From: a virus
Virus record (IMG/VR): IMGVR_UViG_3300037808_000363
Location: 1 to 36,670 of that record
Direction: 5' to 3' (one strand)
Length of the DNA: 36,670 nt
In this document: positions 1-36,670 of the stretch, in pieces
How positions within the stretch are numbered: the stretch's first letter is position 1
Layout: the number at the start of each line of letters is the position of its first letter
Notes under the pieces: generated by a model
Told to the model about the DNA's origin: nothing
What the model saw: the letters and a program-made list of their open reading frames with translations, nothing else
The model's database searches: none
Translations under genes and position numbers: made by a program

Positions 1-127
1 CAAACTGATCAAGGCTTCTGCTCGTGACGCTACTCGCAAGGATCGTGACGATGCCGCAATGGAACTTGAGTTGTCTGCTGACGTTGAAAAACGAATTGGC
101 GTTGCACCTCGTGGTGTCTATCTGCCG
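1..127 (+). repeat. Terminal overlap with 36544-36670 (circular assembly)
   Basis: Bases 1-126 equal 36544-36669 exactly; the last base differs (G at 127, A at 36670), a silent change in a proline codon. This is the overlap of a circular or circularly permuted genome of 36,543 bp. Confidence 0.95.
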
Positions 128-13588: not shown

Positions 13589-13919
13589 TGAAAATAGACG
13601 CTCAACAGACGGGCATATTTATGTTCCGGTTTGGTTGGCTCCAATGTTGCTTGCTGCGTTTGTCGTTTTGGGCTTGGGCTATGTAGTTAGTCTCTCAGCA
13701 GATGACGCGCAGCAGCGGGTTGATGTCCACGCATCATCTGCTGACGTTAGGATTGTAAAACTCGAGGACAGTTCGAAAGCTCAACATACGAATATGCTGC
13801 TGATCAAACAGGAGCTTGAGTACCTTACTGACGAAGTTGGAAAAGCCGCTAACAGCAGCGAAACGAATAACCACCTGCTCAACCGGATTGCAAACAAGCT
13901 CGATGTAGAGATGGATTGA
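13581..13919 (+). CDS. Small membrane protein, possible lysis accessory
   Basis: A 112-residue protein from the ATG at 13581, overlapping the previous gene by 8 bases. It has a cytoplasmic N-terminus of about 17 residues, one strong membrane segment (VWLAPMLLAAFVVLGLGYVV) and a periplasmic region with coiled-coil character (VRIVKLEDSSKAQHTNMLLI, EYLTDEVGKAANSSETNNHL). No family is recognised. The N-in, C-out layout with a periplasmic helix would suit an inner-membrane spanin or a holin partner; this is inference. Confidence 0.55.
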   Translation: MTDENRRSTDGHIYVPVWLAPMLLAAFVVLGLGYVVSLSADDAQQRVDVHASSADVRIVKLEDSSKAQHTNMLLIKQELEYLTDEVGKAANSSETNNHLLNRIANKLDVEMD

Positions 13920-14320
13920 TGGACATTTTGGGCGTTGGCAAATTAGTTGGTTCAGTCATCAACGGGATTGGTGATCGCAGGGCAAGAAAGCATGAGCTAG
14001 AAAAAACCATCGACATGAAAAAGATCGAAGCGGCTGCGGCAATTGATAGCAGCGTTGTCGCGTTGCAGCTTGCTCAGATTGAGGTCAACAAGGCTGAAGC
14101 GGCCAGTCGGAATTTCTTCGTTTCGGGATGGCGACCATTTATTGGGTGGACTTGCGGATTCGCTTTACTCTACAACGTGATCTTCAGCCCTCTGCTTGAA
14201 GGCTTGGGATATCAAATGCCAGTGGTTGACCCTTCGTTATTGTATCCAGTGCTGCTCGGCATGTTGGGCTTGGGCGGTATGCGCTCGTTTGACAAAAGGA
14301 CTGGCAGCACCGCTAAGTAA
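13919..14320 (+). CDS. Holin, 3-TM GTA-type family
   Basis: A 133-residue protein with start at the ATG overlapping the previous TGA; a TTG at 13916 is in frame. The N-terminal half is amphipathic and charged, the centre has the family hallmark FFVSGWRPFIGWTCGFALLY, and a second hydrophobic segment (LLYPVLLGMLGLGGMRSFDK) ends the protein. This matches the holin-of-3TMs family found in gene transfer agents and many proteobacterial phages. It would form membrane lesions that release or activate the lysis enzyme. It is the last gene of the late block. Confidence 0.8.
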   Translation: MDILGVGKLVGSVINGIGDRRARKHELEKTIDMKKIEAAAAIDSSVVALQLAQIEVNKAEAASRNFFVSGWRPFIGWTCGFALLYNVIFSPLLEGLGYQMPVVDPSLLYPVLLGMLGLGGMRSFDKRTGSTAK

Positions 14321-14326
14321 AGGCGA

Positions 14327-14345
14327 CCTCAGAGCCATTCTGGGG
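14327..14345 (+). terminator. Hairpin after the holin gene
   Basis: CCTCAGA pairs with TCTGGGG (one T-G wobble) around a five-base loop. No run of T follows directly, so termination efficiency is uncertain. Its position after the last late gene supports a terminator or mRNA 3'-end role. Confidence 0.5.
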
Positions 14346-14369
14346 CCACCTACGGCGTTTTAAGACATC

Positions 14370-14389: not shown

Positions 14390-14420
14390 AACCCCCATCT
14401 ACACCCTCGCACGATTCTAA

Positions 14421-14436
14421 TGTTTCACGTGAAACA
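14421..14436. promoter_or_regulatory. parS partition site (exact ParB-binding consensus)
   Basis: The 16-mer TGTTTCACGTGAAACA is identical to the bacterial chromosomal parS consensus (TGTTNCACGTGAAACA) bound by ParB/Spo0J. The symmetry extends one base each side to an 18-bp perfect palindrome (14420-14437). One chance match to a fixed 16-mer in a genome of this size would be very unlikely (about 1 in 100,000). It lies in non-coding DNA between the late and early operons. No phage gene here encodes a full ParB or ParA, so the expected ligand is the host ParB. Confidence 0.85.
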
Positions 14437-14494
14437 TCCAAGGCACTCTTATACCTACCAAATGAAGCTGGACAGATTCAATGTTTTGGTCTAG

Positions 14495-14510
14495 TTCAGA
14501 TTGCTCTGAA
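14495..14510. promoter_or_regulatory. Inverted repeat TTCAGA-TTGC-TCTGAA just upstream of the early promoter
   Basis: A perfect 6-bp inverted repeat with a four-base centre. It ends five bases before promoter repeat copy 1. It could be an operator, or a short terminator that insulates the promoter; four A residues follow it. Confidence 0.35.
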
Positions 14511-14514
14511 AAAC

Positions 14515-14585
14515 ATTTGAATATTAATTCATAAAAGAGTGTACATACGTTCAAATATGTATATAATGATACGCATACCAACAAA
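14515..14585 (+). promoter_or_regulatory. Early promoter repeat, copy 1
   Basis: One of three near-identical repeats of about 70 bp. It contains ATATTAATTCA, then AGAGTGTACAT, ACGTTCAAAT, a perfect -10 box TATAAT and CATACCAACAAA. At 17 bp upstream of TATAAT the hexamer is GTGTAC rather than a -35 consensus. Transcription would start just before the 14613 gene. This copy is the most divergent (GTGTACAT in place of GTGTACAC). Confidence 0.75.
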
Positions 14586-14612
14586 GAAAAGAAAAACAAA
14601 AAGGAAACGAAG

Positions 14613-15405: not shown

Positions 15406-15783
15406 ATGGATTTTTTAGAAACTACAAACGGTAGGATCTGCAAATCATTCAAAAATGATTGCGTAGTCAGATCAATCTCGATTGCGACAGAACAGGATTA
15501 CGGGGATGTGTTTGACGATCTGATGAAGCTAGGTTCTGAGCTTCGGGCATATCCAAATCACGACAAAGTCTGGCAGCGTTATCTTGAGAAGACACTGGGC
15601 TGGGTAAAAAACAAGCCGCCCAGAATTGAAGGAAAGTTAATCAAGCTGGGAGACTGGAATCCTGATCACACTGCGGCAGTGATTAGAAATAGTGGTCATC
15701 TTACCGCTATGCACAACGGCATCATCAAAGATACTTGGGACTGTCGTTATAGGCCTGTCAACAGTTACTGGACAGAGTCATAA
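15406..15783 (+). CDS. Papain-like cysteine peptidase-type protein, putative
   Basis: A 125-residue protein. I start at the ATG at 15406, preceded by AAAAAGGAACG; a GTG at 15373 falls in the hairpin flank. The layout suggests a cysteine peptidase fold of C39/papain type: NDC(19)VVRSISIA with the Cys at the head of a helix, then GHLTAMHNGIIKDTWD giving His98 or His103 and Asp109 or Asp112. Similar stand-alone proteins occur in phages with unknown targets. Function and activity are inferred from the motif layout only. Confidence 0.55.
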   Translation: MDFLETTNGRICKSFKNDCVVRSISIATEQDYGDVFDDLMKLGSELRAYPNHDKVWQRYLEKTLGWVKNKPPRIEGKLIKLGDWNPDHTAAVIRNSGHLTAMHNGIIKDTWDCRYRPVNSYWTES

Positions 15784-15789
15784 TTAAAC

Positions 15790-15803
15790 GGGGTTTCGGC
15801 CCC
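15790..15803 (+). terminator. UUCG-loop hairpin GGGGT-TTCG-GCCCC
   Basis: Five-pair stem (one T-G wobble) closed by a TTCG tetraloop, followed by the leader AAACCCAAAAAGGAATAGAAC of the next gene. No T run is present. Confidence 0.55.
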
Positions 15804-15825
15804 AAACCCAAAAAGGAATAGAACA

Positions 15826-16179
15826 ATGAAAACTATTATTTTGAATGGTAAAATTTTGAAGATTTCAGAAAGCGAAGAGAGGGCTTTAAAGACTCTCAAG
15901 TATTACGGCTGGTCTTCGAAAAAAGACAAGTTTGTTGAGGGCTCAAGGCCTCGATATCAAAACACGATTATTCCTCACAGCATCGAAAGACGAAAAGATT
16001 TAGGAATAACGGAAGTTAGTCAGCCAAAAACAAAAAGAGAAATTAAGTTTTTTAAAAATCATTCAAGGTGCAAATCTGGCATTTTTGGAAATCCTCGAAG
16101 GATTAATGCGATTTTAGAAAAGCTTGAAGAAAAGAAAAAATCTAATCTTTCAAGTCTTGCAGCAAGAATCAGCAAATAG
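15826..16179 (+). CDS. Basic early protein, unknown
   Basis: A 117-residue protein, strongly basic (many Lys and Arg). It begins with a strand-helix unit (MKTIILNGKILKISESEERA, LKTLKYYGW) and has a C-terminal helix (INAILEKLEEKKKSNLSSLA). The basic character suggests nucleic acid binding, but no domain is recognised. The start is fixed by AAAAAGGAATAGAACA, the leader also used by the 14867 gene. Confidence 0.6.
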   Translation: MKTIILNGKILKISESEERALKTLKYYGWSSKKDKFVEGSRPRYQNTIIPHSIERRKDLGITEVSQPKTKREIKFFKNHSRCKSGIFGNPRRINAILEKLEEKKKSNLSSLAARISK

Positions 16180-16211
16180 ACAGTCGGCAATTCTAGCGAG
16201 TTGCCTTCTGT

Positions 16212-16231
16212 CTGTCTGTTTTCGCAGACAG
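16212..16231 (+). terminator. Hairpin CTGTCTG-N6-CAGACAG
   Basis: Perfect seven-base stem around TTTTCG, lying 29 bases upstream of the 16261 start. It is preceded by a smaller stem (GCAA...TTGC). There is no T tract, so it may be an RNA processing or regulatory hairpin. Confidence 0.5.
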
Positions 16232-16260
16232 TAAACCATAAACTAAAAAGGAAAACGAAA

Positions 16261-17478
16261 ATGCACAATATTGAAAATTCACAACAGACCCTGACATCAT
16301 TGATGCAGACAATTCAGGATCAAGCAGCACGATCAGCGGATTATTTGGCAAATACTAATAACCTTCAATTCTCAACTGAGGTTACTGAAACAGGCCAGAA
16401 CAATTCGACGGTAATCATGGAAGCGCATAAAGGAATGCCAACAACCGCCCTTCGTGTTAACGATGTTGCCTTTGATCAGATTGCGACTAAAGCAGATTTG
16501 CCTACAAAGACAGCAAGGCGGTTGCGGGATGAATACCCTGCGGTACTCGATCATGCGGTTCGGGAAATTTGGGACAAGGAAAACGAGCCAAGAATGATTC
16601 GCTCTTTCATGGATTCTGAAAGCAACAGCAGCGGAACAGCCAGAGCATTTGTATCTGATAGGTTCAAAACTTTCGACAACGTACATTTACTGTCAGCCGC
16701 TTTGCCTCAGTTGATGGAATCAGACGCACAATGGAAAGTAGTTCGGGGAACTGTTACTGACAAGCAAATGTTCGTCGAATTGAAGAGCGAGATCATTACA
16801 GCAGATGCTGCTGAACGTGCATCTAATCCCCACCCTACTAATAACGTCATGCAGTTGACTGAACATACGAGGTCTTTAGGAGGCGTTAACAGGACTGTAG
16901 GCGATGTCATGGCACTGGCAATCAGGCTCAGAAATAGCGAAGTAGGTCTTGGCTCAATTCAGGTCAGTCAGATGTTGATGACATTAGCTTGCTTGAACGG
17001 GATGCAGACAGGCAACAACCACCGATCAGCGCATTTAACCAGCGCCAGAGGCGATGCGGAATTTGCGCGAATACTTCAGAACGATACCATCGAAGCTGAT
17101 AACCACGCATTGAAGTTGAAGCTTCGTGACCTTATCTCATCTTATGCCGACGAGGGGCAGTTTGAGACTTTAATGGATAAGTTCGCGGCAGCCAGAGGCG
17201 ATCTGATTCAGGTAGCACCACATCAAGCTGTTGAGAACCTTGGTCGAATCATGAAGCTCACCAAGCCTCAAACTGCATCAGTGCTAGACGGGTTGATGGC
17301 TACTATCCAGCAGGATGGTTATGCGGGTCACGCGATATCAAGAGCGACGATGATCAACGCTGTCACGGCGGTTCAACATAAGGTCGAAGCGGACTCGATG
17401 AATGAATGGCAGGTCATGGGCGGCAAGGTGCTGGATCTATCACCCAAGGATTGGTCAATAGTCGCTGAAGCAGCATAA
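16261..17478 (+). CDS. DUF932-type phage/plasmid protein
   Basis: A 405-residue protein starting at the ATG at 16261 after AAAAAGGAAAACG; an upstream TTG in frame is spurious. The sequence contains features of the DUF932 family found on plasmids and phages: an early region with RVNDVAFDQIATKADLPTKT, then SDRFKTFDNVHLLSAALPQL, and a region with EVGLGSIQVSQMLMTLACLN and CLNGMQTGNNHRSAH. The biochemical role of DUF932 is unknown; the family is often near recombination or replication genes. It is the largest gene of the early block and ends with a UUCG hairpin. Confidence 0.75.
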   Translation: MHNIENSQQTLTSLMQTIQDQAARSADYLANTNNLQFSTEVTETGQNNSTVIMEAHKGMPTTALRVNDVAFDQIATKADLPTKTARRLRDEYPAVLDHAVREIWDKENEPRMIRSFMDSESNSSGTARAFVSDRFKTFDNVHLLSAALPQLMESDAQWKVVRGTVTDKQMFVELKSEIITADAAERASNPHPTNNVMQLTEHTRSLGGVNRTVGDVMALAIRLRNSEVGLGSIQVSQMLMTLACLNGMQTGNNHRSAHLTSARGDAEFARILQNDTIEADNHALKLKLRDLISSYADEGQFETLMDKFAAARGDLIQVAPHQAVENLGRIMKLTKPQTASVLDGLMATIQQDGYAGHAISRATMINAVTAVQHKVEADSMNEWQVMGGKVLDLSPKDWSIVAEAA

Positions 17479-17484
17479 TGAAAA

Positions 17485-17498
17485 GGGGCTTCGGCCCC
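17485..17498 (+). terminator. UUCG-loop hairpin GGGGC-TTCG-GCCCC
   Basis: Perfect five-pair stem with a TTCG tetraloop, preceded by AAAA and followed by TAATTT, just after the DUF932 stop and just before promoter copy 2. It may work as a weak terminator. Confidence 0.6.
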
Positions 17499-17504
17499 TA
17501 ATTT

Positions 17505-17575
17505 ATTTGCATATTAATTCAGAAAAGAGTGTACACACGTTCAAGTTTCTATATAATAATGCACATACCAACAAA
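17505..17575 (+). promoter_or_regulatory. Early promoter repeat, copy 2
   Basis: Same arrangement as copy 1: ATATTAATTCA, GAGTGTACACACG, TTCAAG, TATAAT, CACATACCAAC. GTGTACAC is a perfect 8-bp palindrome overlapping the expected -35 position. It drives the 17599 gene. Confidence 0.75.
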
Positions 17576-17598
17576 AACTAAAGGAAGGAATAGAACAG

Positions 17599-17781
17599 AT
17601 GAAAAACAAAGGTCCATTCGCAGACAAGGTAGTGCGCGATCAATGGCAGGGCGGCGGATTCTGGCATGGAGACAAGCGACACCCTAAAGCAGTCGCCGCA
17701 CTAGAGCGCAGAGCCGCACGAATGCGTGGCATCACCGTTGCCGAATTCAGAAAGAACAACATAGGAAACAAAACTATTTGA
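17599..17781 (+). CDS. Small basic early protein, unknown
   Basis: A 60-residue protein framed by promoter copies 2 and 3, so it is probably a single-gene transcript. The ribosome site is AAGGAAGGAATAGAACAG. It is rich in Arg and Lys (HPKAVAALERRAARMRGITV), with a likely central helix. No family is recognised; nucleic-acid binding is possible. Its stop overlaps the beginning of promoter copy 3. Confidence 0.6.
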   Translation: MKNKGPFADKVVRDQWQGGGFWHGDKRHPKAVAALERRAARMRGITVAEFRKNNIGNKTI

Positions 17782-17846
17782 ATATTAATTCAGAAAAGAG
17801 TGTACACACGTTCAAATTTCTATATAATAATGCACATACCAACGAA
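17776..17846 (+). promoter_or_regulatory. Early promoter repeat, copy 3
   Basis: Nearly identical to copy 2. It begins in the last codons of the 17599 gene and carries ATATTAATTCA, AGTGTACACACG, TTCAAA, TATAAT and CACATACCAAC. It drives the 17864 gene. Confidence 0.75.
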
Positions 17847-17863
17847 AAAAAGGAAACAGTAAA

Positions 17864-18238
17864 ATGGAATTTGTAACATCAAAAGAACACGCTGACGAGA
17901 TGGCCAAAAGTTTGTTAAACATGAAGCAAGCTATCGAGTTCATTCAGACTATGATCCCGAATTCAGAAGTAAAGAAGGATGGCCCGAACATATTAGCCAT
18001 TGAATATAAAGGAACCCCAATTTACTTTACTAAGCAAACTGCCGTAGTCGCAATCAACGGGCGCGGCGGTGAAGCATTTAGAACTAGGAATTTAGGTTTC
18101 TGCCCAAAGCACATGCAAGGTGTTTTCGACTGCAATGTCAGGGAAGTAGACGCATATATCGAAAGTCAAGCAGCGGCGAAAGCAAGGAACGATATTCGTC
18201 GGCAGCGAATGATTGAAAAAAGAGCGCAAACCACTTAA
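17864..18238 (+). CDS. Early protein, unknown
   Basis: A 124-residue protein with an AAAAAGGAAACAG ribosome site. The N-terminal part is helical (HADEMAKSLLNMKQAIEFIQ), the middle has beta strands (ILAIEYKGTPIYFTKQTAVV), then a charged C-terminal helix (AAAKARNDIRRQRMIEKRAQ). No family is recognised. It has its own promoter repeat. Confidence 0.6.
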   Translation: MEFVTSKEHADEMAKSLLNMKQAIEFIQTMIPNSEVKKDGPNILAIEYKGTPIYFTKQTAVVAINGRGGEAFRTRNLGFCPKHMQGVFDCNVREVDAYIESQAAAKARNDIRRQRMIEKRAQTT

Positions 18239-18261
18239 CTCTTGGATCATGATAATTAATC

Positions 18262-18275
18262 GGGGCTTCGGCCCC
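18262..18275 (+). terminator. UUCG-loop hairpin GGGGC-TTCG-GCCCC
   Basis: Perfect five-pair stem with TTCG loop between the 17864 and 18300 genes, identical in core to those at 17485 and 18779. No T run follows. Confidence 0.6.
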
Positions 18276-18299
18276 ACATCAAACAAAAAGGAAAAAATC

Positions 18300-18461
18300 A
18301 TGTTTACACTGGAAGAAGCGCACAAAGCAATCGCTAGATTAGAGCACTACATTCAACTCAAACTTTCAAAAGACGAAATGGAACACGTTCTGTGCATACT
18401 TGTTAATACTACCTTTCCATCGTGCAATCCCGTTGATTTAGTGCAATTTATGGACGATTAG
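18300..18461 (+). CDS. Small early protein, unknown
   Basis: A 53-residue protein, start at 18300 after AAAAAGGAAAAAATC; an upstream in-frame ATG at 18213 would read through the hairpin and is rejected. It is largely helical (FTLEEAHKAIARLEHYIQLK, KDEMEHVLCILVNTTF) and acidic at the C-terminus. No family is recognised. Confidence 0.55.
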   Translation: MFTLEEAHKAIARLEHYIQLKLSKDEMEHVLCILVNTTFPSCNPVDLVQFMDD

Positions 18462-18486
18462 CTGCTAACCACTAACCCCACCATCA

Positions 18487-18512
18487 GGCCCTGTAACCAG
18501 TCAGGGCTTTTT
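18487..18512 (+). terminator. Intrinsic terminator GCCCTG/CAGGGC plus TTTTT
   Basis: Six-pair stem with an eight-base loop followed by five T, the strongest intrinsic terminator among the small-gene hairpins. The flanks (ACCACTAACC, ACCATCAG, TTGGTGAAAGAACC) repeat those at 15351. Confidence 0.7.
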
Positions 18513-18549
18513 GGTGAAAGAACCATAAACTTAAAAAAGGAGAATCAAC

Positions 18550-18735
18550 ATGAATCCAGAATGTAGAGCAATAGAATCCCAAGATGACCCCGATTGCCCC
18601 TGCTGCGTATGCGGCAAAGAATCATACGATCATATTGATTATAATGATGGAACATTTCTTTGCACAGATTGCGAAATAAAAGACCTTCAGAGCCTCGGTT
18701 ACATCGTCCCTATCTTGGCGCAGCATCAGGGCTGA
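18550..18735 (+). CDS. Small zinc-ribbon-like protein
   Basis: A 61-residue acidic protein with a C-P-C-C-V-C-G knuckle (about residues 16-22) and a second C-T-D-C pair (about residues 38-41), consistent with a four-cysteine zinc ribbon. The ribosome site AAAAAAGGAGAATC is strong. The ribbon suggests a protein or nucleic-acid contact role, but no target is known. Confidence 0.6.
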   Translation: MNPECRAIESQDDPDCPCCVCGKESYDHIDYNDGTFLCTDCEIKDLQSLGYIVPILAQHQG

Positions 18736-18778
18736 AATTGCCAACCTCAAGATTGTTAGGGCAGAGTCATAACCAAAC

Positions 18779-18792
18779 GGGGCTTCGGCCCC
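18779..18792 (+). terminator. UUCG-loop hairpin GGGGC-TTCG-GCCCC
   Basis: Same perfect core as at 17485 and 18262, located between the zinc-ribbon gene and the 18841 gene. It is followed by AATTTCC, with no long T run. Confidence 0.6.
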
Positions 18793-18840
18793 AATTTCCA
18801 AAAATATTAAGAATCAACAAAAAAAATTAGGATAAATATC

Positions 18841-25001: not shown

Positions 25002-25345
25002 TGCCTCGATCTAATCGCAAACCTTGCTGTAACGCTGGCTGTAATCAACTGACTCACAATAGTTATTGCGACAAGCACAAAACAAAAAAATGGAGGAGAA
25101 GAACGGCAGACAGCGCAAAGCGTCAGGCCATGTACAACACTACAAGTTGGCGAGTGGTGCGGAAGATCCATCTGAATAATAATCCGCTATGCGTTGAATG
25201 CGAAAAATTGCATAGAGTTGTACTCGCCACCGTTGTCGATCACATCACGCCACATCGGGGTGATCAAGCATTATTTGACGATCAAACAAATTATCAAAGT
25301 CTCTGCAAACTTTGTCACGATAAAAAAACAGCCCGAGGGGAATAA
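25001..25345 (+). CDS. HNH endonuclease
   Basis: A 114-residue protein with ATG overlapping the previous stop. Zinc-binding C64-x-x-C67 and C102-x-x-C105, the catalytic D80-H81, and N97 form the standard HNH layout (VVDHITPHRGD, NYQSLCKLCHDKKTA). HNH enzymes near terminase genes of HK97-like phages assist terminase in DNA cleavage during packaging. Its N-terminus has an additional cysteine cluster (CCNAGCNQLTHNSYC). Confidence 0.85.
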   Translation: MPRSNRKPCCNAGCNQLTHNSYCDKHKTKKWRRRTADSAKRQAMYNTTSWRVVRKIHLNNNPLCVECEKLHRVVLATVVDHITPHRGDQALFDDQTNYQSLCKLCHDKKTARGE

Positions 25346-26619
25346 TGGAAATTATTGAAAAGGAAATAGGCGAGTTAACTGCTTATGAAAACAACAGCCG
25401 CACTCATTCGGATGAACAAATAAATCAAATAATTGCCAGTATTAATGAGTTTGGTTTTACAAACCCTTTGCTGATCAACCCTGATAATGGCGTTATAGCG
25501 GGACATGGTCGATTGAGAGCGGCAATTGAAGCAGGCATGGATAAAGTCCCTTGTATAATCCTTAAAGGGCTTACAGAAGCACAGGAGCGCGCATATGTCA
25601 TTGCAGACAATCAGCTAGCATTAAACGCTGGATGGAACATGGATATATTGGCGCTGGAATTAGCAGACTTGAAAGATATGACGTTTGATATTGACCTGAT
25701 TGGTTTTGATGGCGATTTTCTGGATGATTTGTTGGTTGATAAAAAAAACGAAGGGTTGACCGATGAAGATGCGGTTCCTGATGCGCCAGAAAAACCTATA
25801 ACAAAAAGCGGCGATGTTTGGCTGATGGGTGATCATCGAGTTATGTGCGGAGACAGCACAAACATTGATCACGTTGAAATGCTAATGAATGGCAAAATAG
25901 CCAACATGCTATTCACATCGCCCCCGTATAACGCAGGCGAGAATGTGTATGACCCAACATCGAAGGTCACAAAAGGGAAATATGAAGCATACGACGACGA
26001 TATAGACCCGAACGAATGGAAATCATTAGTCAACGATACTCTGACCGTATGGCGGCAATTCACAGAATATCAATTTATGAATATCCAGCAGTTAGCAGGG
26101 AACAAGAAATCTTTTTGGCAGTTCGCTTCTGATAACTCAGATTATCTTGCTGATGTTTCGGTATGGAACAAAGGACATACAGCGCCTGCATACGCCACCA
26201 ACGTAATGAACTCCTCATTTGAATTTGTTTTGATATTTGCTCAAAAAGAAAATCCTAGCAGAGCAATATCAACAGCTAATTTCAGAGGCACTGTGTCGAA
26301 CGTTTTGGATATGGGCGGGCAAAGGTCTAACGAATTTTCTCATGTTCACTCCGCAACATTCCCCGTTGCCATGACTGAACACTACATAACGTCTTTCACA
26401 TCAAGCAATTCTATTATTTGCGATTCTTTTAATGGTGTTGGAACTACGTTGATTGCGTCTGAAAAAAATAACCGCTTGTATTACGGAATGGAAATAGACC
26501 CGCTTTATGTGGATTGCACTGTGATTAGATGGCAAGAGTACACTGGGAAATACGCTGTATTGGAGTCTACTGGGGAAACGTACAACAGAAGCGTTCCACG
26601 TGGAACCATAGTCGAATGA
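25345..26619 (+). CDS. ParB-like N-domain fused to a beta-class DNA methyltransferase
   Basis: A 424-residue protein. Residues 1-100 form a ParB/sulfiredoxin-type domain with GHGR at 53-56 (GHGRLRAAIEAGMDKVPCII). Residues 150-424 form an amino-methyltransferase: catalytic motif IV S-P-P-Y-N (192-196) comes before the cofactor motif D-x-F-x-G-x-G-T (360-368), the beta-class order. It probably methylates phage DNA at adenine N6 or cytosine N4 to escape host restriction. It lacks the helix-turn-helix and C-terminal domains of ParB, so it is not a parS-binding ParB. A parS-like palindrome lies in its last codons (26593-26606). Confidence 0.85.
   Translation: MEIIEKEIGELTAYENNSRTHSDEQINQIIASINEFGFTNPLLINPDNGVIAGHGRLRAAIEAGMDKVPCIILKGLTEAQERAYVIADNQLALNAGWNMDILALELADLKDMTFDIDLIGFDGDFLDDLLVDKKNEGLTDEDAVPDAPEKPITKSGDVWLMGDHRVMCGDSTNIDHVEMLMNGKIANMLFTSPPYNAGENVYDPTSKVTKGKYEAYDDDIDPNEWKSLVNDTLTVWRQFTEYQFMNIQQLAGNKKSFWQFASDNSDYLADVSVWNKGHTAPAYATNVMNSSFEFVLIFAQKENPSRAISTANFRGTVSNVLDMGGQRSNEFSHVHSATFPVAMTEHYITSFTSSNSIICDSFNGVGTTLIASEKNNRLYYGMEIDPLYVDCTVIRWQEYTGKYAVLESTGETYNRSVPRGTIVE
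26592..26607. promoter_or_regulatory. Second parS-like palindrome (GTTCCACGTGGAAC)
   Basis: CGTTCCACGTGGAACC matches the known parS variant TGTTCCACGTGGAACA at 14 of 16 positions, with only the two outermost bases different; its 14-bp core is perfectly symmetric. It lies in codons for S-V-P-R-G-T near the end of the methyltransferase gene, so coding and binding functions would overlap. Confidence 0.65.
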
Positions 26620-36280: not shown

Positions 36281-36670
36281 ATGGACTTGAATCAAAAACT
36301 GACTGACTTCCGTGAGGAAGAGGTTTTAAAAAGAAGTCGGGCTGCCGATCTTGCAGGTAAGGCTGGCAAAGAAGACTTAACCAGTGATGAGCTTTCAGAG
36401 CTTTCGGAAATCGAACAAAGAATCGGTTTCCTCCACGATCAACAGCAAGGCATTGAGCGATCACAAAAAATCGGTGCATTTAGCCCGAACGTGAACGACA
36501 AAGCTGGCATGAACAGCAAAGAGCAGCGGGAATTTTCAATGCTCAAACTGATCAAGGCTTCTGCTCGTGACGCTACTCGCAAGGATCGTGACGATGCCGC
36601 AATGGAACTTGAGTTGTCTGCTGACGTTGAAAAACGAATTGGCGTTGCACCTCGTGGTGTCTATCTGCCA
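36281..36670 (+). CDS. Major capsid protein, N-terminal part with scaffolding delta domain (runs off window end)
   Basis: This is the first 130 codons of the capsid gene. The ATG at 36281 follows CAGGAG with good spacing. The first 90 or so residues are strongly charged and helical (LSELSEIEQRI, FLHDQQQGIE). In this family such a segment is the delta domain, which acts as an internal scaffold and is removed by the prohead protease encoded just upstream. The last 127 bases duplicate the first 127 bases of the window apart from the final base, so the gene continues at position 128 and stops at 1039. Confidence 0.9.
   Translation, partial: MDLNQKLTDFREEEVLKRSRAADLAGKAGKEDLTSDELSELSEIEQRIGFLHDQQQGIERSQKIGAFSPNVNDKAGMNSKEQREFSMLKLIKASARDATRKDRDDAAMELELSADVEKRIGVAPRGVYLP
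36544..36670 (+). repeat. Terminal overlap, second copy
   Basis: Second copy of the terminal overlap, within the capsid gene. An overlap of 127 bases is typical of graph-based assembly of a circle, so it need not be a biological terminal repeat. Confidence 0.95.

Follow-up and report, generated by a model that had tools for sequence, protein, structure and literature searches.

A chromosomal-type parS sequence in a phage genome lacking matches to a DNA-binding ParB domain, and the recurrence of such orphan sites among phages

Why would a phage genome in which no partition system is recognized carry a perfect copy of a bacterial ParB-loading site? ParB-parS is among the most conserved bacterial DNA-marking systems, and that it works through a CTP clamp has been learned only recently. 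The question is raised by ATGTTTCACGTGAAACAT, an 18-bp perfect palindrome in the window, that is, the whole 36,670-nucleotide stretch of viral DNA analysed here (IMG/VR record IMGVR_UViG_3300037808_000363). The palindrome encloses the exact 16-bp parS consensus TGTTTCACGTGAAACA at 14421–14436, as the first-pass annotation had claimed, and no perfect palindrome in the window is longer, the runners-up measuring 14 bp. From the base composition of the window, 1.1e-5 occurrences of the exact 16-mer are expected, which bears out the earlier estimate of a chance near 1 in 100,000. When up to three mismatches are allowed, 14421–14436 is still the single match in the window, and 23 of 100 shuffled sequences also match at such laxity; it is therefore the exactness of the site that counts. 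The chromosomal parS of Hyphomonas is given as the same TGTTTCACGTGAAACA in the accessible part of PMC7022226. The sequence here is of the kind seen in the chromosomal sites of Hyphomonas and Pseudomonas, but it is found on a phage genome without a parAB operon. The usual, though not defining, context of parS is a bacterial chromosome near oriC. The present site is part of a phage genome that a 127-bp end repeat closes, so we name it parS-type and not chromosomal parS.

That end repeat is direct and joins window positions 1–127 to 36544–36670, with 126 of 127 bases identical. Because the first 127 bases recur at the end of the record, the genome is probably complete, and the record, though classed as linear, is probably a complete circular assembly of about 36.5 kb. 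The features relevant to the argument are collected in the table.

Table. Features of the window around the two parS cores (strand "." where none applies).
Feature	Position	Strand	Basis or remark
Holin, PF11351 (GTA_holin_3TM), last gene before the primary site	13919..14320	+	Pfam match
Exact chromosomal-type parS and 18-bp perfect palindrome (primary site)	14420..14437	.	Pattern match, palindrome scan, shuffles
Repeated promoter-like unit, copy 1 of 3	14509..14595	+	Repeat search; sigma-70-like match 14540-14567
First listed + strand ORF (>=60 aa) after the primary site, 68 aa	14613..14819	+	ORF list
ParB_N (residues 19-85 of 424) fused to N6_N4 DNA methylase	25345..26619	+	Profile match
Second parS core GTTCCACGTGGAAC	26593..26606	.	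Codons V-P-R-G-T, towards the 3' end of the methylase gene

The primary site lies in a 292-bp gap between the holin and the first early ORF, whose 68-aa product matches nothing in PHROGs or Pfam at E 0.01. The earlier description of this gap as non-coding DNA between late and early operons holds in that the site falls between the holin stop and the next plus-strand ORF; however, a mechanical 60-aa minus-strand ORF (14417–14599) overlaps it. Downstream begins an 87-bp promoter-like unit, whose later copies at 17499–17585 and 17770–17856 are 78% and 86% identical to the first. The sigma-70-like match nearest to parS is 103–130 bp off, in a scan for which 0.9 chance matches are expected. A hairpin-like stretch around GGGGYTTCGGCCCC occurs four times at window positions 15770–18803, near the ends of small early genes; these copies are likely terminators.

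This arrangement would allow local gene control, in which host ParB would spread from the site and dampen the early promoter unit 72–158 bp away, or insulate the late from the early unit. Early transcription would then be tied to host ParB or to its CTP state. The position of the site between late and early units, adjoining the first promoter-like copy, is consistent with such a role. KorB of plasmid RK2 belongs to the ParB family and offers a precedent; according to the available portion of PMC11790492, this clamp silences genes at long range. On the other hand, no parS core is found near the promoter-unit copies at 17499 and 17770, and the second core of the genome and these two copies are far from one another.

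The second core, overlooked in the first-pass annotation, is GTTCCACGTGGAAC, a 14-bp palindrome that represents the other common parS core. Its 16-mer context here is CGTTCCACGTGGAACC, which differs by one outer base from parS1 and parS4 of P. aeruginosa, given as TGTTCCACGTGGAACC in the part of PMC4368675 available. The genome thus holds one exact chromosomal-type sequence and one variant core; two or more sites in one genome, which phi29 also has, are corroborating evidence for an orphan phage parS. The core pattern GTTYCACGTGRAAC has two matches in the window, namely these two sites, and in 100 dinucleotide-preserving shuffles it has none. Shuffling of synonymous codons (30 CDS, 3000 shuffles) produced a mean of 0.0037 cores per genome, so the second core is moderately unlikely to have arisen by chance. 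It is also carried by contig L255, which is 99.96% identical in nucleotide sequence over 2771 bp.

Which protein might read these sites? Profile searches of the genome gave no match to the ParA-type AAA_31 family (PF13614) or to HTH_ParB (PF17762), and ParB_N is matched in the methylase fusion only. The earlier statement that the genome has neither a ParA nor a full ParB thus stands for the families searched: no parABS of the phage's own was found, and the sites are orphans. Fusions of an N6N4-Mtase to the ParB-CTPase fold are named in the accessible text of PMC12704722, which reports such fusions as enriched in prophage regions. The window protein has the same architecture, which is not in itself evidence that it binds parS. 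Because no phage ParB with a DNA-binding domain was found, a host ParB is the likely reader, and we consider it likely that a host ParB would bind here. NinG and the terminase point weakly to Gammaproteobacteria as the host, and the capsid has its best match in a Roseobacter phage. There is no match to the PF00589 integrase in the genome and all genes with a family match are on the plus strand; therefore, nothing favours lysogeny. Passive, episome-type partition of the phage genome may nevertheless occur.

The relatives of the window were collected with its tail, head-tail and methylase proteins, which gave 1, 7 and 4 loci, respectively, and the single one that spans the primary site is L237. 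None of the eight relatives found by structural or replication genes (L237, L249–L254 and L202; 79,911 bases read) has a parS core. L237 is 87% identical to window positions 13903–14363 at the nucleotide level and retains the promoter unit, and the stretch between the homology ending on the 14363 side and that unit is shorter than in the window. As the sole relative covering the spot, it has no parS, the best match showing 7 mismatches. When the promoter-unit core was used as a probe of IMG/VR, L237 alone was matched. Since L237 keeps the promoter unit without parS, and since the other two copies in the window have no core nearby, parS is not a constant element of the early promoter, which weakens early-promoter silencing as its function. 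The primary site would have been gained in the window lineage or lost in that of L237, recently in either case. Absence from close relatives had been named beforehand as a result that would refute function, and this is what the single covering relative presents. Retention in related phages, which would corroborate a parS without defining it, is not seen, L237 being a sample of one.

More distant comparisons gave the same result. No core was found in the parts read of four named phages with 42–44% identical terminases, or of four named relatives of the terminase of L210 (a contig described below). Among terminase-related genome contigs, 0 of 80 had a core (80 of 314 relatives, mostly Proteobacteria by title; 1.6 Mb), as did 0 of 80 loci with holin relatives (the best 80 of 593). 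The window tail protein had no relative among the genome contigs.

These two sets were gathered without regard to parS, and a third set of that kind gives a different picture. The gene at window positions 16261–17478 belongs to phrog_1362, and 7 of 34 loci containing its relatives (L202 left out) have a core, compared with 0.004 expected. These seven loci amount to about four independent placements. One homologous parS, directly after a terminator-like hairpin with a T-run, is found in L207, L208 and L232; L206 and L216 have one placement in common; and L204 and L210 carry one parS each upstream of terL. In L210, the L207-type stretch is present as well, with a single base change in the core. 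Such patterns suggest that the sites are gained and lost among phages, which makes their absence from L237 less damaging. As a separate observation, the contigs around L206:89, L216:1790 and L214:1774 agree almost completely up to parS, inside which L214 departs from the others, as if recombination had taken place there.

The recurrence of the site is broader still. The exact parS 16-mer occurs in at least 120 IMG/VR stretches, compared with 11 for the one control palindrome used, which was matched in composition and had the same CACGTG centre. Nine palindromes with permuted half-sites had no occurrence in the five sets scanned. Among the matches listed, 26 of the 120 parS-selected loci have at least two cores. 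ParB_N was found above its curated cut-off in 3 of the 120 parS-bearing records (3/98 and 0/22, among the matches listed), with one more below it, a count that is no proof of absence, as 77 of the 120 listed loci measure less than 10 kb and fragments are common among the records. Host contamination may be present among the IMG/VR contigs; the 34 with a TerL match, as well as the named phages, are phages.

It is possible to ask whether the primary site is a chance palindrome or a neutral relic without function. The site is missing from L237, as such an origin would allow, and the occurrence of the control palindrome in 11 stretches implies that some parS matches are background. However, by that same control only about 11 of the at least 120 matches would be background, and the very low expectation per genome has to be set beside a second core in the same genome. 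We consider this origin very unlikely. Another reading is that the palindrome is the operator of a phage-encoded regulator that reads the same sequence by coincidence. Palindromic operators are common in intergenic DNA, and the control palindrome, non-coding by mechanical ORFs in 10 of its 11 places, may itself be one. The core, however, recurs in tailed phages, inoviruses and microviruses, for which a common regulator would be improbable; the permuted palindromes are absent from the five sets scanned; and a shared specificity of host ParB is a simpler account of the recurrence. An operator is thus extremely improbable.

Several other lines were tried on the IMG/VR sites. In the 120 loci, 77 of the 146 exact sites lie in coding stretches (mechanical ORFs), and coding may contribute to some of them, several sitting in long open frames. 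Protein coding of the VRR-NUC kind was considered as a cause of the enrichment; a loose motif flagged 34 of the 146 sites, but a good share of these are in very short frames, and the count was given no weight. Intergenic bias was also considered, with 54 of 131 non-edge sites non-coding where mechanical ORFs cover 89.6% of the bases. Because the control palindrome is likewise mostly non-coding, this bias is not specific to parS and was not used. A blastn count, in which the 32-bp stretch matches 324 of 50,697 phage records compared with 3 for a natural control from L238, was given little weight. The L238 control is AT-rich and perhaps partly filtered, matches of 17 bases may not span the full site, close relatives are counted repeatedly, and records titled 'Listeria phage LM 4-..' are perhaps not single phages. 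Microbacterium phages make up 63 of the 324 matched records.

The position of the sites was addressed in 34 parS-selected loci with TerL, retrieved with the L210 protein as the probe. Of the 50 cores in these loci, 17, from 16 loci, fall in the 400 bp preceding terL; uniform placement would put 2.67 there, and a count of 17 was reached in 0 of 100000 simulations. As the loci were selected for parS and many are from one phage group, the test addresses position only. The nearest named TerL relatives of this group are Pelagibacter and other aquatic phages. In terL loci not selected for parS and with upstream DNA, 2 of 19 (L210 and L204) have a site there. Sites just upstream of terL, or directly behind a terminator-like hairpin with a T-run, would also fit local gene control by ParB. 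The many exact sites within coding stretches speak against it, as do the promoter unit of L237 and the separation of the second core from the remaining promoter copies, and we regard it as unlikely for the window.

Nineteen named phage records were read, whole or in part. Cores are present in 11 of them, from 1 to 7 each, with no match to a reversed-pattern control in any record; as 9 of these 11 were picked from the blastn list, the count is not a frequency. The other eight, terminase relatives of the window or of L210, have no core in the parts read. There are four cores in phi29 (EU771092), two in B103, five and six in two inoviruses, seven in Arthrobacter phage Emotion, two each in Gordonia phage Woes and phiPsa374, and one each in Spiroplasma phage 4, phi-CA82, KaiHaiDragon and HTVC027P. 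For two of their cores, phi29 and B103 agree in gene offset, one lying at 447 in gene 15 and the other 25–38 bases before the end of gene 10; coding constraint may add to this sharing. ParB_N exceeds its cut-off in 1 of the 11 core-bearing phages, KaiHaiDragon, where the protein is annotated as a ParB-like nuclease. HTH_ParB was matched in 0 of 34 records searched, and phi29 has no match to either domain. The HTVC027P site was dropped as strong evidence. It lies within an unannotated 123-aa ORF (L344:15677–16048; ...QYAFHVKHPNN...) in which FHVKH is encoded through the core, so a protein motif could explain it. We take this ORF to resemble a VRR nuclease.

The frequency of multiple cores, in the IMG/VR loci as in the inoviruses and Emotion, brings in titration, by which replicated phage genomes would pull ParB, and thereby SMC, off the origin of the host and stall its cell cycle. 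Titration requires no conserved position and would fit the absence of the site from L237. In contrast, one or two sites per 36 kb would be a weak sink until late in infection, and the terL-proximal positions would be left unexplained. We find titration quite unlikely as the role of the window sites.

We propose instead, and hold it to be reasonably probable, that the primary site is a real parS-type ParB-loading site, gained or lost recently, and that this site and the weaker core at 26593 would recruit host ParB. From the two sequences, the lack of AAA_31 and HTH_ParB matches and the enrichment of orphan sites we infer ParB binding, its sliding and all benefits to the phage. With CTP, host ParB dimers would bind parS and form closed clamps, which would then slide onto the DNA on either side. 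This sequence of events follows the accessible part of PMC12704722, according to which ParB is loaded at parS in the presence of CTP, closes into a clamp that spreads, and stimulates ParA; SMC loading at parS is described in the part of PMC10197239 available. The phage genome would then resemble an origin region to the cell and be handled by host ParA and SMC. The likeliest gain would be that infecting or replicating genomes are kept in the origin zone of the nucleoid; alternatively, phage genomes might be kept with one daughter cell in a slow infection, comparable to phi29 with Spo0J. That placement is the main benefit to the phage is a tentative suggestion. The first-pass reading of the primary site as one for a host ParB, rather than a chance match, is well supported by the two cores and by the enrichment of orphan parS in other phages with near-zero controls; against it stands L237, without the site.

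The closest precedent is phi29. The original phi29/Spo0J work is reportedly that of Meijer et al. in 2005. Spo0J is described as trapping phi29 DNA in the spore in the text of PMC9437464 that is open to view. Like the window phage, phi29 has several chromosomal-type parS cores and no match to ParB_N or HTH_ParB as a separate protein of its own. Unlike phi29, the window phage belongs to another phage class, shows no sign of sporulation, has two cores and lacks the site in its one covering relative. By its sequence, it is a candidate case of an orphan parS of the phi29 kind, and a sporulation benefit as in phi29 is not to be assumed for it. Phage-plasmids of the P1 type also carry a centromere site on phage DNA, within a parABS system, whereas the window has no match to AAA_31 or HTH_ParB. 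The P1 centromere site is of a different sequence type. The available portion of PMC10954446 describes how SGI1 hijacks the ParABS of an IncC plasmid, with two parS mimics and the ParB of another replicon. SGI1 resembles the window in being a mobile element that would use a foreign ParB, but it is an integrative mobilizable element with a plasmid parS and not a phage.

On balance, we lean towards the view that unrelated phages have repeatedly taken up chromosome-type parS without ParB and pose as host origin DNA, as a general strategy with fast gain and loss. We likewise incline, if slightly, to think that this strategy extends over tailed phages of aquatic bacteria, actinobacteriophages, inoviruses, microviruses and phi29-like phages, with the window as a recent two-site case, and that it is largely undescribed. 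A literature search outside most subscription journals returned no paper on phage or orphan parS used by host ParB, and the breadth may already be published. The breadth of orphan parS among phages is a more interesting result than the single site. If it is correct, the question posed by one known case, phi29 in spores, would extend to the infection of non-sporulating bacteria in general, the 16-bp motif would serve as a simple genomic marker of phage-ParB interaction, and phi29, Emotion, KaiHaiDragon and Woes would be ready systems for effects of ParB and SMC on foreign DNA.

Some individual sites deserve mention. Emotion (L351) is a good test phage with its seven cores, four of which lie between annotated genes. 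In Microbacterium phage KaiHaiDragon (L352:38160), a gene annotated as encoding a DNA-binding protein contains the core, at a linker-like stretch with the residues VSRETS. In the inoviruses L350 and L356, which come from rodent faeces, the five and six exact 16-mers lie within about 6 kb, and several of them immediately follow the annotated end of a gene. Both copies of the terminal direct repeat of Pseudomonas phage phiPsa374 contain a core (L357:390–403 and record position 98151).
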